The position numbers and the translations under genes were made by a program. From Prochlorococcus sp. AG-355-A18 (lineage in GTDB: Bacteria; Cyanobacteriota; Cyanobacteriia; PCC-6307; Cyanobiaceae), in contig QCDH01000003.1 of assembly GCA_003280985.1 (NCBI GenBank), forward strand, positions 73,591 through 137,590: a stretch of 64,000 bases of DNA, read 5' to 3'. The notes below the pieces were generated by a model, which saw nothing but the letters and a program-made list of their open reading frames with translations, was not told where the DNA came from and did no database searches. Below are positions 5,392 through 42,565 of this stretch, piece after piece. Positions within the stretch are counted from its first letter, which is position 1; each line of letters opens with the position of its first letter.

Positions 5392-6816
5392 ATGCTTTCG
5401 TCACAAATCAAATCAAATGAAATTGTTTTTGGTGGTTGCAATAAAGATTTATTAGAAGAAATTATTTTCTTTGGGATTGGACTTGGAGCTGATTTTGTGG
5501 AAATATTTATAGAAAATACTGATAACTCAAGTGTTTTAGCTGAAGAAGATTTTATTACATCTGTAAGTCCATCATTTGGAAGGGGTGCAGGTATTAGGAT
5601 CTTTAAAGAAAAAAAGGATGGATTTGTAAGTACAAATGATTTAACAAAGCATGGCCTGATGAGATCAGTATCTCAGGCTATTGAGATGTTAGACATAACA
5701 AACAACAAAAAAGGAGAAGCATTTAGCGGTTTAAATGAACATAGAGACTATAGTTTATCCAAGAAAAAATGGATTAATGAAGTCCCATCTATTCATGAGA
5801 TAAGTGAAAAACTACTAGTCAGCACAAAGTCTCTAAAGAAGAACGACAAAATAATAACTAGAAAAGGAAGTTACTCAAGAAATTTGCAAGAAGTAATAAT
5901 AGCTTCCAGCGATGGAACCTATGTCTCAGATATCAGATTGCATCAAACAGTTGGACTCAATGTAATTGCTAGTGATGCCCAATATAGATCTAGTGGAAGT
6001 AGAAGATTTGGATCGTCAGGAATGCCTAATGAATTCAGATTATGGAATCACGAAAAAGCAGCTAATGAGGTGTTTGAAAGTTCAATGAATATGTTGTATG
6101 CAGATTATGTTGATGCGGGACAAATGCCTGTTGTATTAGCTAATAAATTTGGTGGCGTTATATTCCACGAAGCCTGCGGTCATTTACTTGAAACTACTCA
6201 AATAGAAAGAGGAACAACACCATTTGAAAATAAATTGAATGAAAAGATTGCACATGAATCTGTAACAGCAATTGATGAAGGAATATCAGAAGGATCCTTT
6301 GGTTCATTATCAGTAGATGATGAAGGTATGGAACCAGAAAAATCAGTTCTAATAAAAAATGGAATTTTAAAAAAATTCATATCAGACAGAGCTGGTGAAT
6401 TGAGAACTGGCCATAAAAGGACAGGGAGTGGAAGAAGACAAAATTATTCCTTTGCTGCAGCTTCAAGAATGAGAAATACTTATATAGCTAAAGGTGAGCA
6501 CTCGAAAGAGGATTTAATCAATAGTATTAGTGATGGTCTTTACTGCAAATCAATGGGCGGTGGCAGTGTAGGTGCTACAGGACAATTTAATTTTGCGGTA
6601 GAAGAAGGATATCTTATTAAAAATGGAAAATTAACTAATCCAGTAAAGGGAGCAACTTTAATTGGTGAGGCTAAAGAAGTTATGCCAAAAATATCAATGT
6701 GCGGAAATGACCTCGAATTAGCTCCTGGATTCTGTGGATCCATTAGTGGAAGTGTCAACGTAACTGTTGGCCAACCTCATATTAAGGTTGATTCAATCAC
6801 TGTTGGCGGAAGATAG
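5392..6816 (+). CDS. tldD: TldD-type metalloprotease subunit
   Basis: A 474-residue member of the TldD/PmbA family. The zinc-binding H-E-A-C-G-H motif is at residues 259-264, inside G-V-I-F-H-E-A-C-G-H-L-L-E, and the C-terminus has the Gly-rich A-P-G-F-C-G-S-I-S-G-S segment. In E. coli TldD with TldE (PmbA) forms a heterodimeric protease that trims unfolded peptides. The partner gene begins 3 bases after this stop, so the two are co-expressed. Length is normal. Confidence 0.94.
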   Translation: MLSSQIKSNEIVFGGCNKDLLEEIIFFGIGLGADFVEIFIENTDNSSVLAEEDFITSVSPSFGRGAGIRIFKEKKDGFVSTNDLTKHGLMRSVSQAIEMLDITNNKKGEAFSGLNEHRDYSLSKKKWINEVPSIHEISEKLLVSTKSLKKNDKIITRKGSYSRNLQEVIIASSDGTYVSDIRLHQTVGLNVIASDAQYRSSGSRRFGSSGMPNEFRLWNHEKAANEVFESSMNMLYADYVDAGQMPVVLANKFGGVIFHEACGHLLETTQIERGTTPFENKLNEKIAHESVTAIDEGISEGSFGSLSVDDEGMEPEKSVLIKNGILKKFISDRAGELRTGHKRTGSGRRQNYSFAAASRMRNTYIAKGEHSKEDLINSISDGLYCKSMGGGSVGATGQFNFAVEEGYLIKNGKLTNPVKGATLIGEAKEVMPKISMCGNDLELAPGFCGSISGSVNVTVGQPHIKVDSITVGGR

Positions 6817-31973: not shown

Positions 31974-32053
<80 letters not shown>

Positions 32054-32055
32054 GG

Positions 32056-32079
32056 AAGCAGCTTCACAGCTGCTTTTTT
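32056..32079 (+). terminator. Terminator after the initiator tRNA
   Basis: An 8-bp perfect stem (AAGCAGCT / AGCTGCTT) with a 4-base loop, followed by a T run. A closely related hairpin follows the distal tRNA fragment at 42569, so the duplication reaches past the tRNA into the terminator. Confidence 0.85.
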
Positions 32080-32140
32080 AGTGACCGCAGTACGACTCAA
32101 GCCATAGGACGGGGACTTGAGCAAGACCAGGAGCTGCATT

Positions 32141-32433: not shown

Positions 32434-32693
32434 AGTACCTTTTGCCTTTTGCAGATAAATAATACTTTGTTTACCAGCATAAAAAAAGGAGCTTATTTTA
32501 GATCGACTGTCAATCAGATATCTACTTTTGATGAGTGTGTTCTGTATCTTGAATTGATCTCCAATAATTTATGGTTTGCTTCAGTTATTAAATAGTTCGT
32601 AGTGATACAAATGTTTTGATTGTTTGATATTGGGGTTTTGTATATTGCTAATACCTATCGAATAAGGTTTCTTAGGACAGTTACTAAATCCTC

Positions 32694-33213: not shown

Positions 33214-33615
33214 ATGACACAGTCAAAACTTGAAGAATTACTGAAGATAGATACTGAATCATATAACCTTTTACGAGTACTCCATATGTTCATGAAGTTA
33301 GATAAATCTCAGGATGTTCCACTACAAGCAATGGCAGTATTTTGGTTCGTAGCTACCTATAACAATTGCAGTAAAAAGAATATTGAGGAACACTTTAAAA
33401 TGAGCAAAGCTAGCGCATCAAGACTTACAGACTATTTAAGTAGATATCACAGACTAGGCAAAGTTGGTTTAGGTTTAATTTCAAAAGAAGCTGATCCTAA
33501 AGACAAAAGGAGAACACTTTTGAAACTAACCAGGAAAGGAAAGGATTTAATAGAAAAGTCTTTTAGTACCCTTTATGAAGACGTAAAGGATTATGAAATA
33601 GATTATGAGGTGTAA
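33214..33615 (+). CDS. MarR-like winged-helix transcription regulator
   Basis: A 133-residue protein with a winged-helix core: helix-turn-helix N-I-E-E-H-F-K-M-S-K-A-S-A-S-R-L near residues 55-70 and the wing D-P-K-D-K-R-R-T-L-L-K-L-T-R-K-G, the typical D-x-R-D/K-R-R...L-T-x-K-G pattern of MarR proteins. It begins an operon of three genes joined by TAATG overlaps. It may repress its own operon or other island genes. The ligand or signal is unknown. Confidence 0.82.
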   Translation: MTQSKLEELLKIDTESYNLLRVLHMFMKLDKSQDVPLQAMAVFWFVATYNNCSKKNIEEHFKMSKASASRLTDYLSRYHRLGKVGLGLISKEADPKDKRRTLLKLTRKGKDLIEKSFSTLYEDVKDYEIDYEV

Positions 33616-33806
33616 TGAATACTTGCAACTCTATTAATTCCATAACCCTTGGAAAACTTTTAAAGAAATATAATTTAACTCCCAAGAATAAGCAGAAAGT
33701 TATTTTATTAGCCCAACGGAAAACCGCAACATGGTCTGGTCTCAATAGACTTGCAAGAAAACTAGAATTTAAACAGTCAGTAGCTAATCAACAGCAGCAA
33801 CAGTAA
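33615..33806 (+). CDS. Small basic protein, unknown (island operon)
   Basis: A 63-residue protein with a basic helical centre (L-G-K-L-L-K-K-Y-N-L-T-P-K-N-K-Q-K-V) and a C-terminal Gln run. Start and stop both overlap the neighbouring genes in TAATG junctions, which strongly supports that it is translated between the regulator and the ClpS-like protein. No family recognised. Confidence 0.65.
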   Translation: MNTCNSINSITLGKLLKKYNLTPKNKQKVILLAQRKTATWSGLNRLARKLEFKQSVANQQQQQ

Positions 33807-34105
33807 TGATGGAATTATCTACCACTTCACCTACTACAGTCTTAGAACCAAAGACTGCAAAACAAAAATATCCAGAAGCAAGAGTGATAGTTCTGGATGA
33901 TAACTTTAATACGTTTCAACATGTAGCAAAATCCCTTTTGTCAATAATTCCAGGAATGAGTGAAAAGAGATCATGGGACCTAGCCATTAAAGTAGACAAG
34001 TCAGGTTCCGCAGAAGTATGGAGGGGTAATTTTGAACAGGCTGAATTTTATCACGAGCAACTAGTTAGTAAAGGTTTAACTATGGCTCCAATTGAAAGAA
34101 CTTAA
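33806..34105 (+). CDS. ClpS-like Clp protease adaptor
   Basis: A 99-residue protein with the ClpS fold pattern: V-I-V-L-D-D-N-F-N-T-F-Q-H-V near 27-40, a helix around S-L-L-S-I-I-P-G-M-S, A-I-K-V-D-K-S-G-S-A-E-V-W-R-G near 60-75 and E-Q-A-E-F-Y-H-E-Q-L. ClpS delivers N-degron substrates to the ClpAP/ClpCP protease. Two substrate-pocket positions differ from canonical ClpS: N-D-D becomes L-D-D, and the V-H-x-x-G histidine is Asp. Cyanobacteria have a second, divergent ClpS with altered specificity, which this may be. A second ATG one codon in (33809) is possible. Confidence 0.8.
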   Translation: MMELSTTSPTTVLEPKTAKQKYPEARVIVLDDNFNTFQHVAKSLLSIIPGMSEKRSWDLAIKVDKSGSAEVWRGNFEQAEFYHEQLVSKGLTMAPIERT

Positions 34106-34236
34106 AATTTAATTGAGAGTAATGTAAGAATTTACTTTAGTAAATTAAGCAAAGACAAATAAAATGTTAAATATCTGGGGTTTGTCGTAAAAGCATTTTA
34201 TAAAATATATCGAAATTTAATATTTGGAGAAAATGT

Positions 34237-34410
34237 ATGGAAAATAAAAAAGTGATAAAAGTTGAACCATTGAATTTCTACTCAAATGATATGACTCTAA
34301 CTAAAGATCAGCTAGTTCATAATCACTTGAAGTTGACGTATCAAAAAAACTTAGTTTCTGATCTAGATCAAAAACATAAAACATGGGCTAAAGAAGATGC
34401 AGCAAGTTAA
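34237..34410 (+). CDS. Small hydrophilic protein, unknown (island)
   Basis: A 57-residue protein, M-E-N-K-K-V-I-K-V-E-P-L-N-F-Y at the start and K-H-K-T-W-A-K-E-D-A-A-S at the end. The bases for this C-terminus and the stop recur in degraded form at 37219-37266, so the gene has a decayed relative further along the island. Confidence 0.55.
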   Translation: MENKKVIKVEPLNFYSNDMTLTKDQLVHNHLKLTYQKNLVSDLDQKHKTWAKEDAAS

Positions 34411-34514
34411 TTTTACTTGTGATGAGTGTGTTTTAATATATTTAATTTCTAAAAATTGATGGTTTACTTTTTGATGATTTATATTAACTAAATATACTTT
34501 TATTTTAAAAAGAA

Positions 34515-35024
34515 GTGTTAGATATTTTGAATAAGATTTTTACTTTTATATTAATTCTAATATTACCTGCGTATGCTTACGCGGGCTTTCCTGAAGGTGA
34601 GAAGGGTTACGATTTAAATAAAATAGAAAAGTCATTCAAACTTCCTTGTAGTGAAATTGGAAATGATCAATGTCTTGCAAGAGCAGTAGCTATGGGAGGT
34701 TGTATTTATAGTTTTGAAATTAACAAAGGGAAAGAAAATGAAGACGCCTTAAAAAAATCAGATGAAGTTTTAATTGCTCTTTTAGATGGAAACAGTTTGG
34801 ATATAAATAATATGTTTGAAAATGATGGATCAATTAAAAATGATATTAGATCTGAAGTAATTAGCAGAATAAATTCTTGTCGTGAAGCTACTAAAAAAGC
34901 AATACCTAATTTAGTTAAGTTACCTGAAGGGATGGAAATGACAGAAGAGAGACTTGAAAGCTTGACTAATACTTATCCTCAGTACTATCTATACATGTTT
35001 GAACAAATGAGAAATGGCAAATAA
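34515..35024 (+). CDS. Exported protein with Cys pairs, unknown (island)
   Basis: A 169-residue protein with a cleavable signal peptide (hydrophobic residues about 8-21, then A-Y-A-Y-A-G). The mature part has cysteines in C-S-E-I-G-N-D-Q-C-L and M-G-G-C, plus one in I-N-S-C-R, which could form disulfides in the periplasm or lumen. Start taken as GTG at 34515 after an AAGAAG-type site. It lies between the ClpS operon and the first hli gene. Confidence 0.65.
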   Translation: MLDILNKIFTFILILILPAYAYAGFPEGEKGYDLNKIEKSFKLPCSEIGNDQCLARAVAMGGCIYSFEINKGKENEDALKKSDEVLIALLDGNSLDINNMFENDGSIKNDIRSEVISRINSCREATKKAIPNLVKLPEGMEMTEERLESLTNTYPQYYLYMFEQMRNGK

Positions 35025-35113
35025 TTACTTCTTATTCTTAAATATTATTTTTATACATATATGTTACAGAAATGTATAGATTAAACATAAATATAAGCAT
35101 ATACGACCAATTT

Positions 35114-35143
35114 CTTTACATTAATTAATATTAATGTTACATT
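35114..35143 (+). promoter_or_regulatory. Shared 30-bp upstream block of hli transcript A
   Basis: This block begins CTTTACA and ends AATGTTACATT. It matches 37384-37413 at 27 of 30 positions. It ends 27 bases before the ATG of the first hli gene; the other copy ends 25 bases before its hli gene. The flanks are much less similar, so the block is a candidate operator or core promoter. Confidence 0.6.
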
Positions 35144-35170
35144 AGTTTACATAAATCACCCTTTATAAAA

Positions 35171-35278
35171 ATGACTCCTGAAGCAGAAAGATTTAACGGT
35201 TGGGCAGCAATGCTCGGTTTCGTTGCAGCTGTTGGCGCATACGTAACAACTGGTCAAATTATTCCTGGTTGGTTCTAA
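35171..35278 (+). CDS. hli: High-light-inducible protein (HLIP), 35 residues
   Basis: A single-helix member of the light-harvesting-like family: A-E-R-F-N-G-W-A-A-M-L-G-F followed by T-G-Q-I-I-P-G-W-F. E-R-F-N supplies the ExxN chlorophyll-binding motif; the usual Arg after Gly is Trp here. HLIPs bind chlorophyll and carotenoid in thylakoids and protect photosystems under stress. The stop overlaps the next hli start (TAATG). Confidence 0.92.
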   Translation: MTPEAERFNGWAAMLGFVAAVGAYVTTGQIIPGWF

Positions 35279-35412
35279 TGACAAACACAAAAACAGTTGA
35301 GAAGGAAAAGATTATAGCTGAGAAGCTTAACGGCAGATTTGCAATGATGGGCTTTATTGCTCTTATTGGCGCTTATCTAACAACAGGTCAAATTATTCCA
35401 GGCTTTGTGTAA
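35278..35412 (+). CDS. hli: High-light-inducible protein (HLIP), 44 residues
   Basis: Contains A-E-K-L-N-G-R-F-A-M-M-G-F and L-T-T-G-Q-I-I-P-G-F-V, the complete one-helix chlorophyll-binding signature. The N-terminus T-K-T-V-E-K-E-K is almost the same as in the hli gene at 37439, so these two are recent duplicates. It is coupled by TAATG overlaps to genes on both sides. Confidence 0.94.
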   Translation: MTNTKTVEKEKIIAEKLNGRFAMMGFIALIGAYLTTGQIIPGFV

Positions 35413-35594
35413 TGCTCGAGGCAGGAATTAACACTTGGATTAACACTATACTTTTTCCTTTTATGCCAGTCATAACAGTATTTCTTGTTAGTGCATTAAT
35501 GTTGAGTGATTTGCCATGGAATGATGATGATGACGATGATGATGGCGGCGGATTAATTTCCCCGGTGTATAACTATGTTCCCCAAGGGGCTTAG
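35412..35594 (+). CDS. Small membrane protein with Asp run, hli partner
   Basis: A 60-residue protein: one hydrophobic helix (about residues 14-31), a run of seven Asp, then G-G-G-L-I-S-P-V-Y-N-Y-V-P-Q-G-A. The start overlaps the stop of the preceding hli (TAATG), so the two are made together. The layout resembles the core-genome micro-protein at 13522. Function unknown; a thylakoid partner of HLIPs is a guess. Confidence 0.75.
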   Translation: MLEAGINTWINTILFPFMPVITVFLVSALMLSDLPWNDDDDDDDGGGLISPVYNYVPQGA

Positions 35595-35609
35595 AGGACA
35601 TGTATCAAA

Positions 35610-35723
35610 ATGACTTTCATCTCATCTTTATTTAACTCAGTTCCTTCAAGTGCTAAAGACCTTTTAGAGTTTGGTTTCTTTCTTACTGTGGGTATTACAG
35701 CAGGAAAAGTAGGACTCTTATGA
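35610..35723 (+). CDS. Micro membrane protein, unknown (hli operon)
   Basis: A 37-residue protein: F-N-S-V-P-S-S-A-K-D-L-L-E, then a hydrophobic end F-G-F-F-L-T-V-G-I-T-A-G. The stop overlaps the next start (ATGA). Its position inside the coupled hli run supports translation. Confidence 0.55.
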   Translation: MTFISSLFNSVPSSAKDLLEFGFFLTVGITAGKVGLL

Positions 35724-35806
35724 AAACATATCTAATTGCCATATCACTATTTGGCATTGCAGTAATTACTACTGCGATAGCACCAAGTATTGCTTACGCA
35801 CTATAA
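35720..35806 (+). CDS. Micro membrane protein, 28 residues (hli operon)
   Basis: Nearly the whole protein is one hydrophobic helix (L-I-A-I-S-L-F-G-I-A-V-I-T-T-A-I-A) ending A-P-S-I-A-Y-A-L. The ATGA overlap with the preceding ORF argues for real expression. It could equally be a short signal-peptide-like piece. Confidence 0.5.
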   Translation: MKTYLIAISLFGIAVITTAIAPSIAYAL

Positions 35807-35841
35807 AAATTTAATCACTCTTATTAACGAACAATTAAAAA

Positions 35842-35970
35842 ATGGAAAACTCAAAACCAACTTATTGGCAAAATGCCGAGAGAACCAATGGAAGAATGGC
35901 AATGATGGGTTTATTCGCATTGGTTGTAAACTACGGTCTTTTTGGCTGGATCATCCCAGGTATTTTTTAA
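35842..35970 (+). CDS. hli: High-light-inducible protein (HLIP), 42 residues
   Basis: Carries A-E-R-T-N-G-R-M-A-M-M-G-L-F-A-L and F-G-W-I-I-P-G-I-F. The W-Q-N-A-E-R-T-N-G-R start resembles the more conserved HLIP type with an N-terminal Trp. It follows the micro-ORFs of the first hli run by 35 bases. Confidence 0.93.
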   Translation: MENSKPTYWQNAERTNGRMAMMGLFALVVNYGLFGWIIPGIF

Positions 35971-35971
35971 A

Positions 35972-36064
35972 ATGAATATAGATATTTTCTTAATCTCTTT
36001 CTTTACATATCTATTAGTGCCAGTGGTAATGGTTGCTAAGGGTAGAAAAAATAAGGCATTTTAA
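35972..36064 (+). CDS. Micro membrane protein, hli partner
   Basis: A 30-residue protein that begins 1 base after the hli stop. One helix (I-F-L-I-S-F-F-T-Y-L-L-V-P-V-V-M-V) is followed by a basic tail (K-G-R-K-N-K). Same arrangement as the other hli plus micro-protein pairs of the island. Confidence 0.55.
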   Translation: MNIDIFLISFFTYLLVPVVMVAKGRKNKAF

Positions 36065-36065
36065 A

Positions 36066-36242
36066 ATGTCTTATTTCGCAAAAAATAATTATATAAAATA
36101 TGACGAATGGTTTGATGAGAATATTTCTCCACTTGATTTAAAATTTTATTACGAAGAAAAACGATTCTCAAATACTCTTCATGAAAAATTTTATTTATTG
36201 TCAACCTCAAAAATATTCATTGGGGGTTCTGAAAAAAAATGA
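36066..36242 (+). CDS. Small hydrophilic protein, unknown (hli run)
   Basis: A 58-residue protein rich in Tyr, Phe, Lys and Glu, beginning M-S-Y-F-A-K-N-N-Y-I-K-Y-D-E-W-F-D and without a membrane segment. It starts 1 base after the preceding micro-ORF, so it appears to end this hli operon. No family recognised. Confidence 0.6.
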   Translation: MSYFAKNNYIKYDEWFDENISPLDLKFYYEEKRFSNTLHEKFYLLSTSKIFIGGSEKK

Positions 36243-36327
36243 TTAATATAAAATATTTTTTTTAATTACTGCTCCTAATAATAATTAAAGAAAAATAAGG
36301 TAAGTGATTATATTATCAACAAAAAAA

Positions 36328-36372
36328 GGACGTAAGATACGTCCGATTAAAAGCTTGATAATCCCCATCACC
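36328..36372 (+). other. Hairpin plus CCCCATCACC element downstream of hli operon
   Basis: A perfect 7-bp hairpin (GGACGTA / TACGTCC, 36328-36344) is followed at 36363 by CCCCATCACC and then AACCC with five T bases. The same 10-mer recurs at 36476 and 46935 near the 3' ends of candidate small RNAs, so this may be a degraded or shortened member of that family, or the operon's 3' end. Confidence 0.4.
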
Positions 36373-36390
36373 CAACCCTTTTTAAAATAA

Positions 36391-36510
36391 TAGCACTACA
36401 TATGGTGTTTGTATGTAATAAATTTTACCTATTGATGGGGTTGTAAGTTTCCATTTATTTTGTCATGATAGAAATCCCCATCACCTAGGCTCGAAAGAGT
36501 CTTTTTTTTT
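36391..36510 (+). ncRNA. Candidate small RNA (island copy) with CCCCATCACC motif
   Basis: No ORF. In order: GCACTAC...GTGTTT near 36393, GATGGGG (36434-36440), CCCCATC (36476-36482, complementary to it), ACC, and a terminator hairpin with a GAAA loop (36487-36502) followed by T bases. The same order occurs at 46.85-46.97 kb with a different terminator stem. Exact 5' end is not visible. It may belong to a known Yfr family, but I cannot assign one. Confidence 0.5.
36487..36510 (+). terminator. Rho-independent terminator of the candidate small RNA
   Basis: A 6-bp stem with one G-T pair (AGGCTC / GAGTCT) and GAAA loop, followed by nine or more T bases. Confidence 0.75.
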
Positions 36511-36629
36511 TAGCTAAAAATAACTTTTACGTGAAGGTTTCTAACAGCAAAATAAAACAGTCTATTTAGATACACAAAAAATCAATTGCAAAGCAATAGG
36601 ATACTTTTACTAAAGATAAAGTATTCAAT

Positions 36630-36884
36630 ATGTCATTAAAAAATCAAACTAATAAAATCTATCCATGGGATTATCAAATAGGAGATGATAATTACCAATT
36701 AGAGCCTTGGATTCTAGAGAAAGGAAAAGAATATGTTTCCATTATGAAAAATATTGATAACAAAGGTTTTTTTTATTTACAAAAAAATGGCGAGAAACGT
36801 CTCTCTCTTAAAGCTTTACAAATAAAATCTACTTATAAACAATTGATGAATTTAGGATATAAGCTACGAATAACTAAGTTCTAA
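36630..36884 (+). CDS. Small soluble protein, unknown (island)
   Basis: An 84-residue protein: I-Y-P-W-D-Y-Q-I-G-D-D-N-Y-Q-L-E-P-W-I-L at the N-terminus and a basic helical C-terminus (L-S-L-K-A-L-Q-I-K-S-T-Y-K-Q-L). No signal peptide or membrane segment. No family recognised. Confidence 0.6.
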   Translation: MSLKNQTNKIYPWDYQIGDDNYQLEPWILEKGKEYVSIMKNIDNKGFFYLQKNGEKRLSLKALQIKSTYKQLMNLGYKLRITKF

Positions 36885-37383
36885 TTTTTTAAGGGTATAT
36901 TTTACTGAGATCAAACTCTGGTTTTACATAATTAATAAGAAACGGAGAGCTAGAGGCAACCACATACATAGAAGAAGCATTAGTAATAAAGTAATAGCAT
37001 GGACATTGGGAATGTAATGCTCTTTAAAAACTTGATCCTTCATTAATTTATCTAGCTTTCCTTAATTTTATCTCCCTTCTGATAAGTAAAGCTATAACAA
37101 CTACACACATATTCATCAGAAAAACGTTTAATGGCATTAATAAAAAAAGTATTTACTTAATTGATAGCAAGAATGTTAGTCTGAAAATATTAAGATTTAC
37201 TGATAGTAAGAGAGAGAGAAAACATCAAACATGGGTGAAAAAAAAGATGCAAAAAGTTAATTACTTGTTGAAAGAAATTAAATTTTAGAAAGGGTAACTA
37301 CATAAAGCAAATTGATGACTTTGACTCATAACTGTGACATTTTGTTTTAATTTATTTAAAATCTAAGATAAATAGTAATATTA
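36885..37383. other. Gene-poor stretch with a degraded repeat
   Basis: No convincing gene with a start codon. A long start-less open frame on the plus strand reaches 37288 and ends in bases related to the 3' end of the 34237 gene. Otherwise it is AT-rich sequence without recognised structure, leading into the promoter of the next hli gene. Confidence 0.5.
37219..37266 (+). pseudogene. Remnant related to the 3' end of the 34237-34410 gene
   Basis: The stretch around AAACATCAAACATGGG, through AAGATGC...AAGTTAATT to ACTTG, lines up with the last codons, stop and trailing bases of the gene at 34237-34410. Insertions and substitutions break the frame. It reads as a decayed duplicate. Confidence 0.4.
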
Positions 37384-37413
37384 CTTTACACTAAGTAATA
37401 TAAATGTTACATT
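37384..37413 (+). promoter_or_regulatory. Shared 30-bp upstream block of hli transcript B
   Basis: It matches 35114-35143 at 27 of 30 positions and ends 25 bases before the hli ATG at 37439. Same-distance conservation in otherwise unrelated flanks suggests a shared promoter or operator. Confidence 0.6.
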
Positions 37414-37438
37414 TTATATGTAGGATTTCATTCTTCTT

Positions 37439-37594
37439 ATGAACTCAAAAAAAGTTAAAGTTCTCGAAACAAAAACAGTTGAGAAGGAAAAAGTTGTTGC
37501 TGAAAAGCTCAATGGCAGATTTGCCATGATTGGTTTCATAGCTGCTATTGGTGCTTACTTAACAACAGGTCAAATTATTCCTGGGTTCGTCTAA
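37439..37594 (+). CDS. hli: High-light-inducible protein (HLIP), 51 residues
   Basis: Contains A-E-K-L-N-G-R-F-A-M-I-G-F and T-T-G-Q-I-I-P-G-F-V. From T-K-T-V-E-K-E-K onward it is nearly the same as the hli gene at 35278, but has a longer N-terminus (N-S-K-K-V-K-V-L-E). It is followed without a gap by a membrane micro-protein. Confidence 0.94.
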   Translation: MNSKKVKVLETKTVEKEKVVAEKLNGRFAMIGFIAAIGAYLTTGQIIPGFV

Positions 37595-37705
37595 ATGGAC
37601 TTTATTTCTAAACGCCAAGGATATGTTCCTTTTAAGGTAGTTCCTTACATTTTCTTTATTTCTGTAATTTTAAGTATCACTACAGCAACTGAAGTGTTCG
37701 TATAA
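37595..37705 (+). CDS. Micro membrane protein, hli partner
   Basis: A 36-residue protein that starts at the base after the hli stop. A short basic N-terminus is followed by one helix (V-V-P-Y-I-F-F-I-S-V-I-L-S-I-T-T-A). The same hli plus micro-protein arrangement is seen at 35412 and 35972. Confidence 0.6.
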   Translation: MDFISKRQGYVPFKVVPYIFFISVILSITTATEVFV

Positions 37706-38106
37706 ATTTTCAACAAACATATTCATGAGAGCTTGCTTCTAGAAATATAATCGAGCTTTTTTTCTTTCTGTGATGAGTAGTGTGTTCATAAAAAAGTTTA
37801 GATTGACTATCAATCAAAAAAGTTAGAACGAGAATTATTAGCTATTAATAAATAAAGGATACTAATGAAGCTAAAAATCAATATAAATTTTATAGAAAAA
37901 TATTTAGCTTATTTAATAAACGATATTTAATATAAGCGGATTACAAAAAAATTAAAAAAATATGATTTAATGGCGGACGTTGACGATCAAAGATTTCATC
38001 ATTTTAGATCGACTGTTAATTAATTATTTCCCTTAATAACAACTTAATATAAGTAATTATCAAATTAAATTTATGCTTAAATATTTCAGTTCTCATTAAC
38101 TTACAA
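37706..38106. other. Gene-poor stretch with two dispersed-repeat copies
   Basis: No supported gene. It holds GATGAGTAGTGTGTT (37772-37786), directly followed by a TTTAGATTGACTATCAATCA copy (about 37797), and a second related copy at about 38002. A terminator-like run of T bases follows AGCTTGCTTCTAG... near 37757. Both motif families recur elsewhere in the island. Confidence 0.5.
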
Positions 38107-38325
38107 ATGTATTATTCAGAAACTAAAGTGATAATGGGTGGTCTAGCCCATGTTCCAATATTAATCTTCATAGTAAATTTTATTAAAGGAAAGTTTGAAT
38201 CTATAGCATCAAAAGTAGTTGAAGTTAAAGCGGAAGAGCCAAAGGTAAAATTAGTTGAAGTTAAAGAAGAGGAAGTAAAAGCGGAAGAGGTAAACGCAAG
38301 TGAAGTTAAAGAAGAAGCAGAATAA
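38107..38325 (+). CDS. Membrane-anchored protein with Lys/Glu repeat tail (island)
   Basis: A 72-residue protein. A hydrophobic helix (about residues 9-26) is followed by imperfect repeats of the type V-E-V-K-A-E-E (V-E-V-K-A-E-E-P, V-E-V-K-E-E-E, V-K-A-E-E-V). The tail could form a charged extended helix. A later ATG (38134) is an alternative start just ahead of the helix. No family recognised. Confidence 0.6.
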   Translation: MYYSETKVIMGGLAHVPILIFIVNFIKGKFESIASKVVEVKAEEPKVKLVEVKEEEVKAEEVNASEVKEEAE

Positions 38326-38430
38326 CAGGAAGAAATGATTAAGAAAGAGGTTTTAATCCCTCTGCGTTAGATCGACTTTAAATCAATTAAAAGTGCGAAT
38401 AAAGTGTGAATAGAAAAATTTTTTTTTAAA

Positions 38431-38574
38431 TTACCTTTTATAGATAAATCTTTGTATGTCTTCGAATAGATTAGATTTTGATTTAAAAAATCCATTACTT
38501 TTTAAATAAGATTTTCCTTTTTCTATATTTTCAATTCTTTTTTCATAAGAATTTTCATCTAAATTTTTTTGCAT
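38431..38574 (-). CDS. Small basic protein, unknown (island)
   Basis: A 47-residue hydrophilic protein on the minus strand: M-Q-K-N-L-D-E-N-S-Y-E-K-R-I-E-N-I-E-K-G, then S-N-L-F-E-D-I-Q-R-F-I-Y-K-R. Balanced charge and helical periodicity favour a real gene; there is no independent support. Confidence 0.45.
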   Translation of the reverse strand: MQKNLDENSYEKRIENIEKGKSYLKSNGFFKSKSNLFEDIQRFIYKR

Positions 38575-38838
38575 AAAAAAATAGTCGGAATCTTATTCTG
38601 AATAATGCTCACAAAAAAGCGGTAACCTTAAATACAAAATTTAGATTCTTTTTTGAATTGCTTCTCATTCAAACTAAAGATCAAATAAAAAAGTTTCTTT
38701 CTTAAATTTTGAAAATTATTAATTAAAAATAAATTAAAAATAAAATTCTTAGAAAAAATGTAGTTTAGGTAGGAAACACTACATCAATTACCTATTAGGA
38801 ATAATTAACTTGTAAATATAAATCTATCTCGCATAATT

Positions 38839-38967
38839 ATGGAATTCTTTAAAAAATTCATGACTGAGAAAGCTGAAAAGCTTAACGGTAAAGCTGCAAT
38901 GCTTGGAATTTTTGCCCTAATAGGGGCTTACTATTTTACAGGTCAAATTGTTCCAGGTATTTTCTAA
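38839..38967 (+). CDS. hli: High-light-inducible protein (HLIP), 42 residues
   Basis: Carries K-A-E-K-L-N-G-K-A-A-M-L-G-I-F-A-L and F-T-G-Q-I-V-P-G-I-F. It is monocistronic: a strong terminator follows at 38992, and it lacks the 30-bp block seen upstream of the other two hli transcripts, so it is probably regulated separately. It is the fifth hli gene of the island. Confidence 0.94.
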   Translation: MEFFKKFMTEKAEKLNGKAAMLGIFALIGAYYFTGQIVPGIF

Positions 38968-38991
38968 CGAAAAGCTTACTAAGACTTTTGG

Positions 38992-39019
38992 GGGGTTGGT
39001 AATTTTCAGCCCCTTTTTT
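38992..39019 (+). terminator. Terminator after the hli gene at 38839
   Basis: A 7-bp stem (GGGGTTG / CAGCCCC, one G-T pair) with an 8-base loop and six T bases. Confidence 0.8.
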
Positions 39020-39028
39020 ATTTAATGA

Positions 39029-39166
39029 CTAAGAATCTCTTGATAACTTGTTTTTCATATCTTCAATATTCTTGATTAATTTTTCTATCCATTCTGTATT
39101 GTCATCTTGTTTTAGATATGTAATTTTTGGTTGATTAATTTCAAGTGTTTCGAAATCTCCACTCAT
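39029..39166 (-). CDS. Small acidic helical protein, unknown (island)
   Basis: A 45-residue protein, M-S-G-D-F-E-T-L-E-I-N-Q-P-K-I, then an amphipathic helix (W-I-E-K-L-I-K-N-I-E-D-M-K-N-K-L). A clear AGGAGA ribosome site precedes the ATG on the minus strand. No family recognised. Confidence 0.6.
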   Translation of the reverse strand: MSGDFETLEINQPKITYLKQDDNTEWIEKLIKNIEDMKNKLSRDS

Positions 39167-39393
39167 AAATTCTCCTTTGTATATTTGTTTAGCTACATCT
39201 TTGTTCTAATTGATTTGACTAAAATACTGCGTATCTAATGTGTGCGGTTTGAGGAACATTTAGGTACGGAAAGAGGTATGTTTTTTTAGTCATTTAAATC
39301 TATGGTTGACCTAAATTAGAAATATGGTTGTCATGAGTCGGTTGCATTGCTACAACTGAAATCAACCATAAACTTTAAATTGCATTAAATAAA

Positions 39394-39576
39394 ATGACTT
39401 ACTACAGTTGCTTTGATCAAAAAGGAAACATAATTGCTCGCTGTCAGACTAAAGAAGATATAGATGTTCTTAAGAAAATGGGCAGACCAATAATGGAAAT
39501 AAAAGAAATGAAAAAAGAGGAATCAGTTGTTTGTTCTTTAACTGGTAGTCCATCCGATTACAACGAAGATTATTAA
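39394..39576 (+). CDS. Small soluble protein, unknown (island)
   Basis: A 60-residue protein: Y-Y-S-C-F-D-Q-K-G-N-I-I-A-R-C-Q-T-K-E-D-I-D-V-L-K-K, with a third Cys near the end (V-V-C-S-L-T-G-S-P). The first half looks like a small folded unit. The next micro-ORF begins 4 bases after its stop. Confidence 0.6.
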   Translation: MTYYSCFDQKGNIIARCQTKEDIDVLKKMGRPIMEIKEMKKEESVVCSLTGSPSDYNEDY

Positions 39577-39580
39577 GAGT

Positions 39581-39712
39581 ATGACTCAAAGATCACTTCA
39601 ATTAAATCAACATGGAAGATCAGTAGTTTTTTTGTTGGTTGCATTGAATAGCATTTGTACTTTCTTTTCTACTTTTGAAAAAGCATTAACTGATCGCGAA
39701 AGAGCAAGATAA
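39581..39712 (+). CDS. Micro membrane protein, unknown (island)
   Basis: A 43-residue protein: hydrophilic first 13 residues, a helix (V-V-F-L-L-V-A-L-N-S-I-C-T-F-F), and a charged end (A-L-T-D-R-E-R-A-R). It follows the preceding gene closely and is followed by a terminator at 39765. Confidence 0.55.
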   Translation: MTQRSLQLNQHGRSVVFLLVALNSICTFFSTFEKALTDRERAR

Positions 39713-39764
39713 AAATATTTAGTTATTTGTGTATTAACAGTCAATCAATAAAATTTAAGACATA

Positions 39765-39792
39765 AAAAAAGACCCTTTTAGAGGTCTTTTTT
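39765..39792 (+). terminator. Bidirectional-type terminator
   Basis: AAAAAAGACC / GGTCTTTTTT with an 8-base loop; the A run and T run let it act in either direction. Confidence 0.75.
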
Positions 39793-40178
39793 AAATGGTG
39801 ACGACAGAAAGGAGATCTATTTAATAATCAGATTAAGAATTTTCTTAGAAATTAGTTTTGAAAGTAAAAGTGATTACTCACTTCTTCATGCTTTACAAAC
39901 GACTTTATTTTTAAGATAGTTCAGAATTAATCCCGAAAGTTTAATTTCTGATCACTTAACTTTCTTTCCGTAAAGGTTAGATTAGTTAATTTACCTTGGT
40001 ATTGCAGACCATGGATTAGTGAAGATCTAGTTGGTCAACCTTGGTCGAGTCGATCACCAGAACTGTCGTATAATTAAAGTAATCGGTCACAGATATTTTG
40101 CATGAATCCTTAAGATTGATTTAATCATGATTAATTAAATCTTTAATCCTCGGACCACATCATCTCTTGGTAAGCAGT
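39793..40178. other. Noncoding stretch, nothing recognised
   Basis: No ORF with convincing composition on either strand and no hairpin with a T run. It lies between a terminator and a set of minus-strand genes. Confidence 0.4.
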
Positions 40179-40535
40179 TTATTTTTTTGTTTTACAAAGA
40201 ATATAAAGCCAACCAAAGAAAGTAGCAAAAGCAAGTATTGAAGCAATATTCTTATTCAATGGACTTAAATAACTGTTTATTGCTAGTGGTACATGAAGAA
40301 TCACTAAATACCAATATAAAGTAGATAGTAATCCGAATAATAAAGCCAGAAGAATATAAAAAGGCAAGATATATAATCTTCTTTTTTTAATTCTTTCCTC
40401 TGTAATATTTTCGGATAAACCAATTCTTGACCAATAACCTCCATTTAATTGAAGAAAAAACTTTAAAAATATTCCGTAGGTATTTATAAAAAATCTAGAT
40501 AAAGCAAATAACGGCGTAATTATAAATCGTTTCAT
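40179..40535 (-). CDS. Small membrane protein, unknown (island)
   Basis: A 118-residue protein with a hydrophobic N-terminus (about 5-27), a charged linker (S-E-N-I-T-E-E-R-I-K-K-R-R), and two or three further spans (about 55-80 and 90-112). It follows the 60-residue gene at 40543 on the same strand, 7 bases apart. No family recognised. Confidence 0.55.
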   Translation of the reverse strand: MKRFIITPLFALSRFFINTYGIFLKFFLQLNGGYWSRIGLSENITEERIKKRRLYILPFYILLALLFGLLSTLYWYLVILHVPLAINSYLSPLNKNIASILAFATFFGWLYILCKTKK

Positions 40536-41970: not shown

Positions 41971-42108
41971 CTAAGTTATCTCGTAGCTATCGAATTTAGT
42001 TTTTAACTTTGCTGCTTTATGGATTAAAGCCACCGCTTCTTTTCTTCCATTAGCATTATTAACTTGGAGTATAAGGTCTTCATATTTCTTTACGATTTTC
42101 TTTTTCAT
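41971..42108 (-). CDS. Small helical protein, unknown (island)
   Basis: A 45-residue basic protein: K-K-K-I-V-K-K-Y-E-D-L-I-L-Q-V-N-N-A-N-G, then E-A-V-A-L-I-H-K-A-A-K-L-K. Likely two short helices. It is the last ORF before the distal end of the island. Confidence 0.5.
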   Translation of the reverse strand: MKKKIVKKYEDLILQVNNANGRKEAVALIHKAAKLKTKFDSYEIT

Positions 42109-42346
42109 AGTTTAGATTAAATGAAAACCATTTTTAATTCTATCAGGAGTAGGAGATCTACTGCTTGAGATAGGAATCAACGGTAAAACCTCAGAGTAAA
42201 CAAATTGGAACGGGTTCACTCGTAGGAGTTAGTCATAAACGATCAAATTGATTTTTGCAGGTATTTATTACTGCATTATTCTCAAATAAAGACAGAATAT
42301 TTATCAACCCTAATTTTTTTCGGGTTAAAGAAAATTGCCTGATTTT

Positions 42347-42466
42347 GTTACACGTGTAATATTGGTATAATTAAAATCACTTGATATATCTGTTAATTTT
42401 AAACTTTAGGTGTTACACGTGTAACATCGAAAAACTGTTAAAGGTGGTGTAACAAGCCGTGTAACA
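42347..42466. promoter_or_regulatory. Cluster of TTACACGTGTAA palindromes and half-sites
   Basis: Two palindromes (42348-42359 and 42413-42424; the second extends to a perfect 16-bp TGTTACACGTGTAACA) and two direct half-sites GTGTAACA (42447-42454 and 42459-42466) lie in 120 bases, ending about 50 bases before the distal attachment repeat. Candidate binding sites for a recombinase, its accessory factor, or a regulator. No ORF here. Confidence 0.6.
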
Positions 42467-42514
42467 TCAGAAGTCAAAACCATTGCCATCAATGGTTTAC
42501 AAGGAAAATAAGTA

Positions 42515-42565
42515 GGGCTCATAACCCGAAGGTCGGAAGTTCAAATCTCCCCCCCGCCACCATTT
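42515..42565 (+). repeat. Distal attachment-site repeat (51-bp tRNA 3' fragment)
   Basis: An exact copy of 32003-32053: anticodon stem, variable loop, T arm, acceptor 3' strand and CCA of the initiator tRNA. The 5' half of the tRNA is absent, so it cannot be functional. It marks the far end of the island. Confidence 0.9.

Follow-up and report, generated by a model that had tools for sequence, protein, structure and literature searches.

The 64-kb stretch of Prochlorococcus DNA analysed here (the window, 29.3% GC) carries an intact initiator tRNA-Met gene (CAT) at 31974..32050 on the forward strand, recognised by ARAGORN and by the Rfam tRNA model, which forms the left junction of a genomic island. 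A 48-nt remnant of the 3' part of this gene, equal to 32003-32050, lies on the same strand at 42515..42562 and constitutes the attachment (att) core, reaching from the anticodon stem to CCA. Six of the eight single-copy sites examined are empty, in the sense that they join the tRNA directly to the DNA found to the right of the window remnant; the other two (G116 and G147) have different DNA after their single-copy tRNA. This direct junction between tRNA and right-flank DNA implies that about 10.5 kb has been inserted in the window.

Islands of this type in Prochlorococcus are reportedly the tycheposons of Hackl et al. (2023). Seven target tRNAs are listed for them, tRNA-Met among these, in PMC10872708. 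As described there, they resemble the window island, or rather the window island resembles the tycheposons in being bounded by an intact tRNA at one end and a 3' tRNA remnant at the other, with variable cargo in between, and it has empty sites in relatives. A tyrosine recombinase beside the intact tRNA is a further shared feature, here found in intact sister islands, whereas the window copy is unlike the elements so described in that no recombinase of its own was found in the island, at the tRNA end or elsewhere. The genome to which the window belongs (G000, 70% complete) likewise gave no match to the integrase family described below.

The cargo shows several features of its own. A Glutamine-II riboswitch is located within the island at 32086-32121, directly past the regenerated tRNA and its terminator. 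A quasi-palindromic repeat, TAGATYGACTNTCAATC, recurs between island genes at 32499, 37799 and 41209, and also at 38004 and 38367; these repeats are possibly cassette boundaries. Five short related reading frames at 35153-38967, which we take to resemble high-light-inducible (hli) genes, have relatives in at least 12 of 16 island loci compared. In G064 (L163), the cargo is inverted with respect to 33214-40535 of the window, with the order of the ends unchanged.

Immediately before the tRNA remnant lies a dense noncoding cluster of short repeats. The original prediction had placed palindromes and directly repeated half-sites there, beside the distal attachment repeat, and all of them are found where it put them, in a stretch with no open reading frame of at least 80 aa. 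Its description of the two palindromes as perfect holds over the full 16 bp of the second and needs a small correction for the first, which is perfect over 12 bp only. The latter, P1 (TTACACGTGTAA, 42348-42359), and the former, P2 (TGTTACACGTGTAACA, 42411-42426), are spaced 65 bp apart. Both can be read as inverted pairs of octamers with no strand of their own, namely TGTTACAC/GTGTAATA for P1 (42346..42361; 161 and 153 bp from the core) and TGTTACAC/GTGTAACA for P2 (42411..42426; 96 and 88 bp from the core). Two direct forward-strand copies of GTGTAACA follow with a 12-bp period, D1 at 42447..42454 (60 bp from the core) and D2 at 42459..42466, whose end is separated by 48 bp from the start of the core, GGGCTCATAAC, at 42515. 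Counted from the core's first base, the octamers of the window therefore stand at -161(-), -153(+), -96(-), -88(+), -60(+) and -48(+). The only Rfam match in the cluster was a sub-threshold tmRNA hit that spans the tRNA remnant, and it was rejected.

This accumulation is far above chance. GTGTAACA, counted on both strands, occurs six times in the window, and five of the six copies fall within 42346-42466, as compared with a mean of 0.90 and a maximum of 3 in 100 dinucleotide shuffles of the whole window; from base composition alone, the Poisson probability of at least five copies in 121 bp is about 1e-14. Looser matching is less telling: allowing up to two mismatches, TTACACGTGTAA has five matches in the window, two of them exact, which is weakly above chance (shuffle mean 1.91, with 5 of 100 shuffles reaching five).

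The original prediction had proposed a genome-wide count and a search beside the tRNA fragments of other islands. In the window's own genome, exact TTACACGTGTAA occurs only at the two sites of the cluster, and the reversed control gives none. Across a survey of 266 Prochlorococcus genomes, it occurs at 25 sites in 14 genomes, every one inside this same cluster, with two sites 65 bp apart in 11 genomes and one extra copy of the 65-bp unit in G042; the 14 genomes align as a single conserved noncoding segment. By BLAST, this segment, the distal arm of the attachment site (42225..42511, forward strand), is present in 17 of the 266 genomes and, in diverged form, in G145. Of 15 testable genomes, 12 have it next to the tRNA-fMet remnant, the remnant being present in 11 and starting at the contig end in G041; in G254, G150 and G233 homology ends just short of the core, leaving an arm with no tRNA remnant, and two further genomes fall outside the 15 (G106 and G190, whose contigs stop within the arm). 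The motif is confined to the attachment-site cluster rather than common throughout the genome and unlinked to such sites. Next to the arm, a possible small minus-strand reading frame with a conserved leader occupies 41980-42224, and the BLAST query used for the arm matches 120 of 266 genomes, mostly through its first ~45 nt (42180-42224), which in some genomes occur twice and ahead of various genes.

The octamers are not invariant within the arms. Across the 17 arms, the right half of P1 (GTGTAATA) is intact in 16 and the left half (TGTTACAC) in 14, the left and right halves of P2 in 11 and 15, D1 in 14 and D2 in 15, one of the three missing copies of D1 and one of the two of D2 being sequence that was not covered; some type-A arms (defined below) have damaged octamers. 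In these 17 close arms, columns within octamers show no significantly stronger conservation than those around them (10/48 versus 40/137 variable columns, P=0.35), nor do they in two subsets of arms (P=0.16 and 0.48). No copy of the cluster was found in 110 viral stretches containing TGTTACACGTGTAA, nor in the 125 viral loci among the matches listed by further scans.

P2 also matches exactly the parS consensus, TGTTNCACGTGNAACA, and an exact match to this consensus occurs in 10 of 266 genomes, in this cluster. This resemblance to bacterial parS made a centromere read by ParB appealing. We dropped it when no ParB domain was found: HTH_ParB was not found in 26 of 26 genomes searched nor ParB_N in 17 of 17 cluster genomes, with most control genomes positive and several of the genomes incomplete. 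The direct octamers and the pairs at the other island end described next are not parS, and the layout and letters follow the integrase type, so that a centromere is extremely improbable. As a separate observation, an unrelated viral contig (L069, L123; IMGVR_UViG_3300037423_000235) has many TGTTACACGTGTAACA and TGTTTCACGTG-type sites, several of them right ahead of AGGAGG-like stretches, in a parS-like multi-site pattern.

The same octamer pair is found at the opposite, integrase-bearing end of intact sister islands. Past the intact tRNA, G222 has GTGTAACA-actg-GTGTAACA and G124 has GTGTAAAA-attg-GTGTAACA, while G031 and G115 have two copies of ATGTCAAC with a period of 12, their distal arm being different too. 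A GTGTAACA-like pair stands 121-122 nt past CCA in the eight type-A proximal ends examined that retain the arm, seven of them with an integrase (G104, G117, G124, G190, G235, G251 and G216) and G222 with none. We then searched the 14 islands with both ends covered, blind to the letters, for a pair of period 12 that the two ends share, leaving out those with one end only (distal for G038; proximal for G190, G216, G066, G006, G182 and G145; the distal ends of G006, G182 and G066 show no remnant in the stretches examined). The outcome was positive in eight of the 14 (G124, G235, G251, G104, G117, G222, G115 and G031), and for each of these none of 500 dinucleotide shuffles reproduced the common pair.

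No common period-12 pair was found in the other six, G042, G196, G064, G041, G000 and G036. The first five give no integrase match and lack the proximal pair, and they cease to resemble intact islands 86, 49, 76, 40 and 41 nt past the tRNA, respectively. G000 is the window's own genome: its residual proximal arm occupies 32051..32091 on the forward strand, with similarity stopping 41 nt past CCA and before the place that the octamer pair takes in intact islands, so that the window island has octamers on its distal side only. Because the integrase and the proximal pair are both absent, the window island is probably immobile by itself. The sixth, G036, shows AGTACA at either end, repeated with periods of 11 and 13; its 7-kb element (L261), at the same tRNA-fMet, encodes an integrase, a phage capsid/protease protein and a VapE-like helicase, and looks like a capsid-encoding phage satellite.

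Short direct pairs are not restricted to tRNA-fMet. Pairs with a period of 10-12 were counted, with no shuffle control, past tRNA-Gly and tRNA-Ser(cga) at integrase loci and past a tRNA-Pro 3' half (L226, L227, L225, L233 and L234); at four tRNA-Ser(tga) sites, L228 has no pair, L229 a clear one, and L230 and L231 weak ones. This suggests that such pairs are a general arm layout.

In both G124 and G115, a gene for a 449-aa protein adjoins the proximal octamer pair; in intact islands, the start of this gene lies 276-277 bp past the core, at the end opposite the distal arm. With the G124 protein as query, the family is present in 15 of 266 genomes (E<=1e-15). It is intact at 95% identity or more in six of the 17 cluster genomes (G104, G117, G124, G190, G235 and G251); in G106, a distant relative is present in broken pieces. 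The protein is not recognised by Pfam, PHROGs, NCBIfam or PDB sequence searches; the 36 matches to Pfam PF00589 in 19 genomes include none inside cluster-bearing islands, a blank that we attribute to the divergence of the integrase. By eye, the motifs GLRNHE, WRTKSK, YDLRHT, MGH and KHY can be picked out, which we take to be the tyrosine-recombinase pattern with Y replacing the usual first H of the HxxR box. An AlphaFold model is poor (pLDDT 58.6) and shows an N-terminus of helix, three strands and helix; used as a Foldseek query, it nonetheless retrieved tyrosine recombinases or their relatives at ranks 1-24, with a best E-value of 2.8e-4. This supports, though it does not prove, that the 449-aa protein is a divergent tyrosine recombinase, and the low-confidence fold would give the intact sister islands an element-encoded recombinase with an arm-binding N-terminal domain.

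A family of picocyanobacterial tyrosine recombinases that escapes standard profiles and lies next to tRNA genes has been described (PMC10187409), and in these respects the fMet integrase is alike. According to that source, the family is found at tRNA-Phe or tRNA-Cys, which are different tRNAs, and is distinct from tycheposon integrases, a description that sets it apart from the fMet integrase. Arm sites of the fMet islands do not appear in the titles and abstract openings among the literature matches listed, a set whose scope does not include the founding tycheposon paper.

Two specificity types can be distinguished among these integrases, and they differ at the end of the protein that would be expected to read the arms. 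Between types A and B, the N-terminus is identical at only 19 of 65 positions (29%, alignment columns 1-72), versus 237 of 341 (70%, columns 111-457) in the core-binding and catalytic part. The arm letters change together with this N-terminus: at the same -60/-48 positions, and at both ends, type A has GTGTAACA and type B has ATGTCAAC. The type B arms of G115 and G031 contain ATGTCAAC-like sites at -129, -107, -79(-), -60 and -48; palindromes are absent there and single sites stand at -129, -107 and -79. Eleven of 166 genomes at least 75% complete have two fMet cores, nine of them with GTGTAACA arms (the eight with the cluster plus G145) and two with ATGTCAAC arms (G031 and G115). G145 is instructive in this respect. 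Its arm, which over the best-matching 92 query bases is 77% identical to the window, has GTGTAACA at -86, -60 and -48 and neither palindrome, which indicates that the direct octamers are the constant part and the palindromes are not. The other side of its core is 84% identical to the G115 proximal end and has one ATGTCAAC at +173. Locus L208 (G145:C26) runs from a GTGTAACA-type distal arm through the fMet core into a ATGTCAAC-type proximal end that keeps one of its two sites, and is an apparent tandem of two element types at one tRNA.

These letter changes bear directly on an operator, which the original prediction had suggested as a target of the MarR-like protein encoded at 33214. That protein does have a MarR_2 match, and palindromic sites are typical of operators. 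Its counterpart in G031 is nevertheless identical at 123 of 133 residues, although the sites there read ATGTCAAC; among islands with the cluster, G042, G196 and G041, all three covered end to end, have no DNA match to the gene, and no exact octamer lies near the marR gene. We dropped MarR as the reader on the G031 identity and its absence from the other three islands, and regard an operator for an island regulator as highly improbable. Iterons of a replication origin for the excised circle were considered as well, since iteron origins combine direct repeats with inverted half-sites and the cluster layout resembles them; an unrelated viral contig (L116, near 6580-6645) has an iteron-like array of this sort, a palindrome followed by direct TGTAACA half-sites. 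The pairs of the islands, however, flank the att core at constant spacing and vary with the integrase type, and no initiator family was found in the eight island reading frames scanned, which leaves very little probability for an origin.

Matched motifs on both sides of the core also occur in viruses. The viral contigs L413-L416 carry the fMet core with no tRNA 5' half, as in a free attP, with an integrase of the same family (28-39% identical) alongside; L414 duplicates the L413 junction, and L417 is an intact tRNA. In L415, which our reading of its frames suggests to be tailed-phage-like, TTGATGC is found at -71/-59 and TTGATGCA at +172/+184, an arrangement reproduced by none of 500 mononucleotide shuffles. 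L413 and L416 have GGCCCA at -62/-49 and from +167 on, and failed the octamer-pair test. Arm motifs on both sides of the core are accordingly seen in the eight islands of 14 and in L415. Recombinase arm sites, one of the options raised by the original prediction, are strongly supported by these matched viral sites together with the octamer pair at the integrase end of sister islands and the change of letters with the integrase N-terminus.

A small helix-turn-helix (HTH) protein adjoins each integrase (L159:3041-3277 and L206:2465-2695). Its HTH_17 matches, one of which passes the curated cut-off while the other falls below it, and its weak PHROG excisionase matches suggest that it is excisionase-like. 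This protein might be a recombination directionality factor that reads the octamers, above all the palindromes, in place of the integrase. It differs between types A and B too (36 of 74 positions identical), and palindromes would fit a dimeric winged-helix protein. On the other hand, excisionase sites usually lie on one arm, as in lambda, and matching direct pairs at a set spacing on either arm have the look of integrase arm sites. We judge it unlikely that the octamers as a whole belong to such a factor, although it may read some of them.

We conclude that the cluster is very probably the distal attachment-site arm of a tycheposon-type island at tRNA-fMet, with GTGTAACA as the arm-type site of the 449-aa tyrosine recombinase. 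In integrases of the lambda family, N-terminal domains bind arm sites, catalytic domains bind the core, and DNA bending joins the two; the attP sites of lambda, L5 and Tn916 have short repeated arm motifs flanking the core that are read by a small N-terminal domain. Repeated short motifs on both sides of the core are what the fMet islands share with these sites. What sets the islands apart is a divergent integrase, the addition of two palindromic octamer pairs to the direct one, and swapped letters in elements that share a tRNA core.

By analogy, we infer that the N-terminal domain of the integrase would bind the GTGTAACA octamers and the catalytic domains the anticodon-stem core. D1 and D2, at 48-67 bp from the core, are matched in intact islands by the same-letter period-12 pair located about 170 bp away on its other side. 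Integrase protomers could then bridge arm and core sites, with the DNA bent into a recombination complex. P1 and P2, read as head-to-head octamer pairs, probably serve as additional arm sites, biasing the reaction toward one direction or adjusting the supply of integrase; they are not universal, and both G145 and the other specificity type lack them.

The break points at 40, 41, 49, 76 and 86 nt past the tRNA suggest that the integrase end has been lost repeatedly, although the breaks at 40 and 41 nt might be one event. More speculatively, and with somewhat less than even confidence, N-terminal domains and arm letters may be exchanged together among integrases that share the fMet core, giving each element a private address that avoids cross-reaction, while orphan distal arms persist and may dock relatives.

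These findings define, at the level of sequence, the working ends of Prochlorococcus fMet islands, and the arm sites point to an integrase overlooked by the profile libraries used. With core and geometry constant and letters that differ, the islands offer a natural experiment on the evolution of arm specificity in integrases. Lastly, intact and 'decapitated' islands become distinguishable from sequence, a distinction relevant to the possible fixation of cargo genes, those for high light included, in ocean populations.
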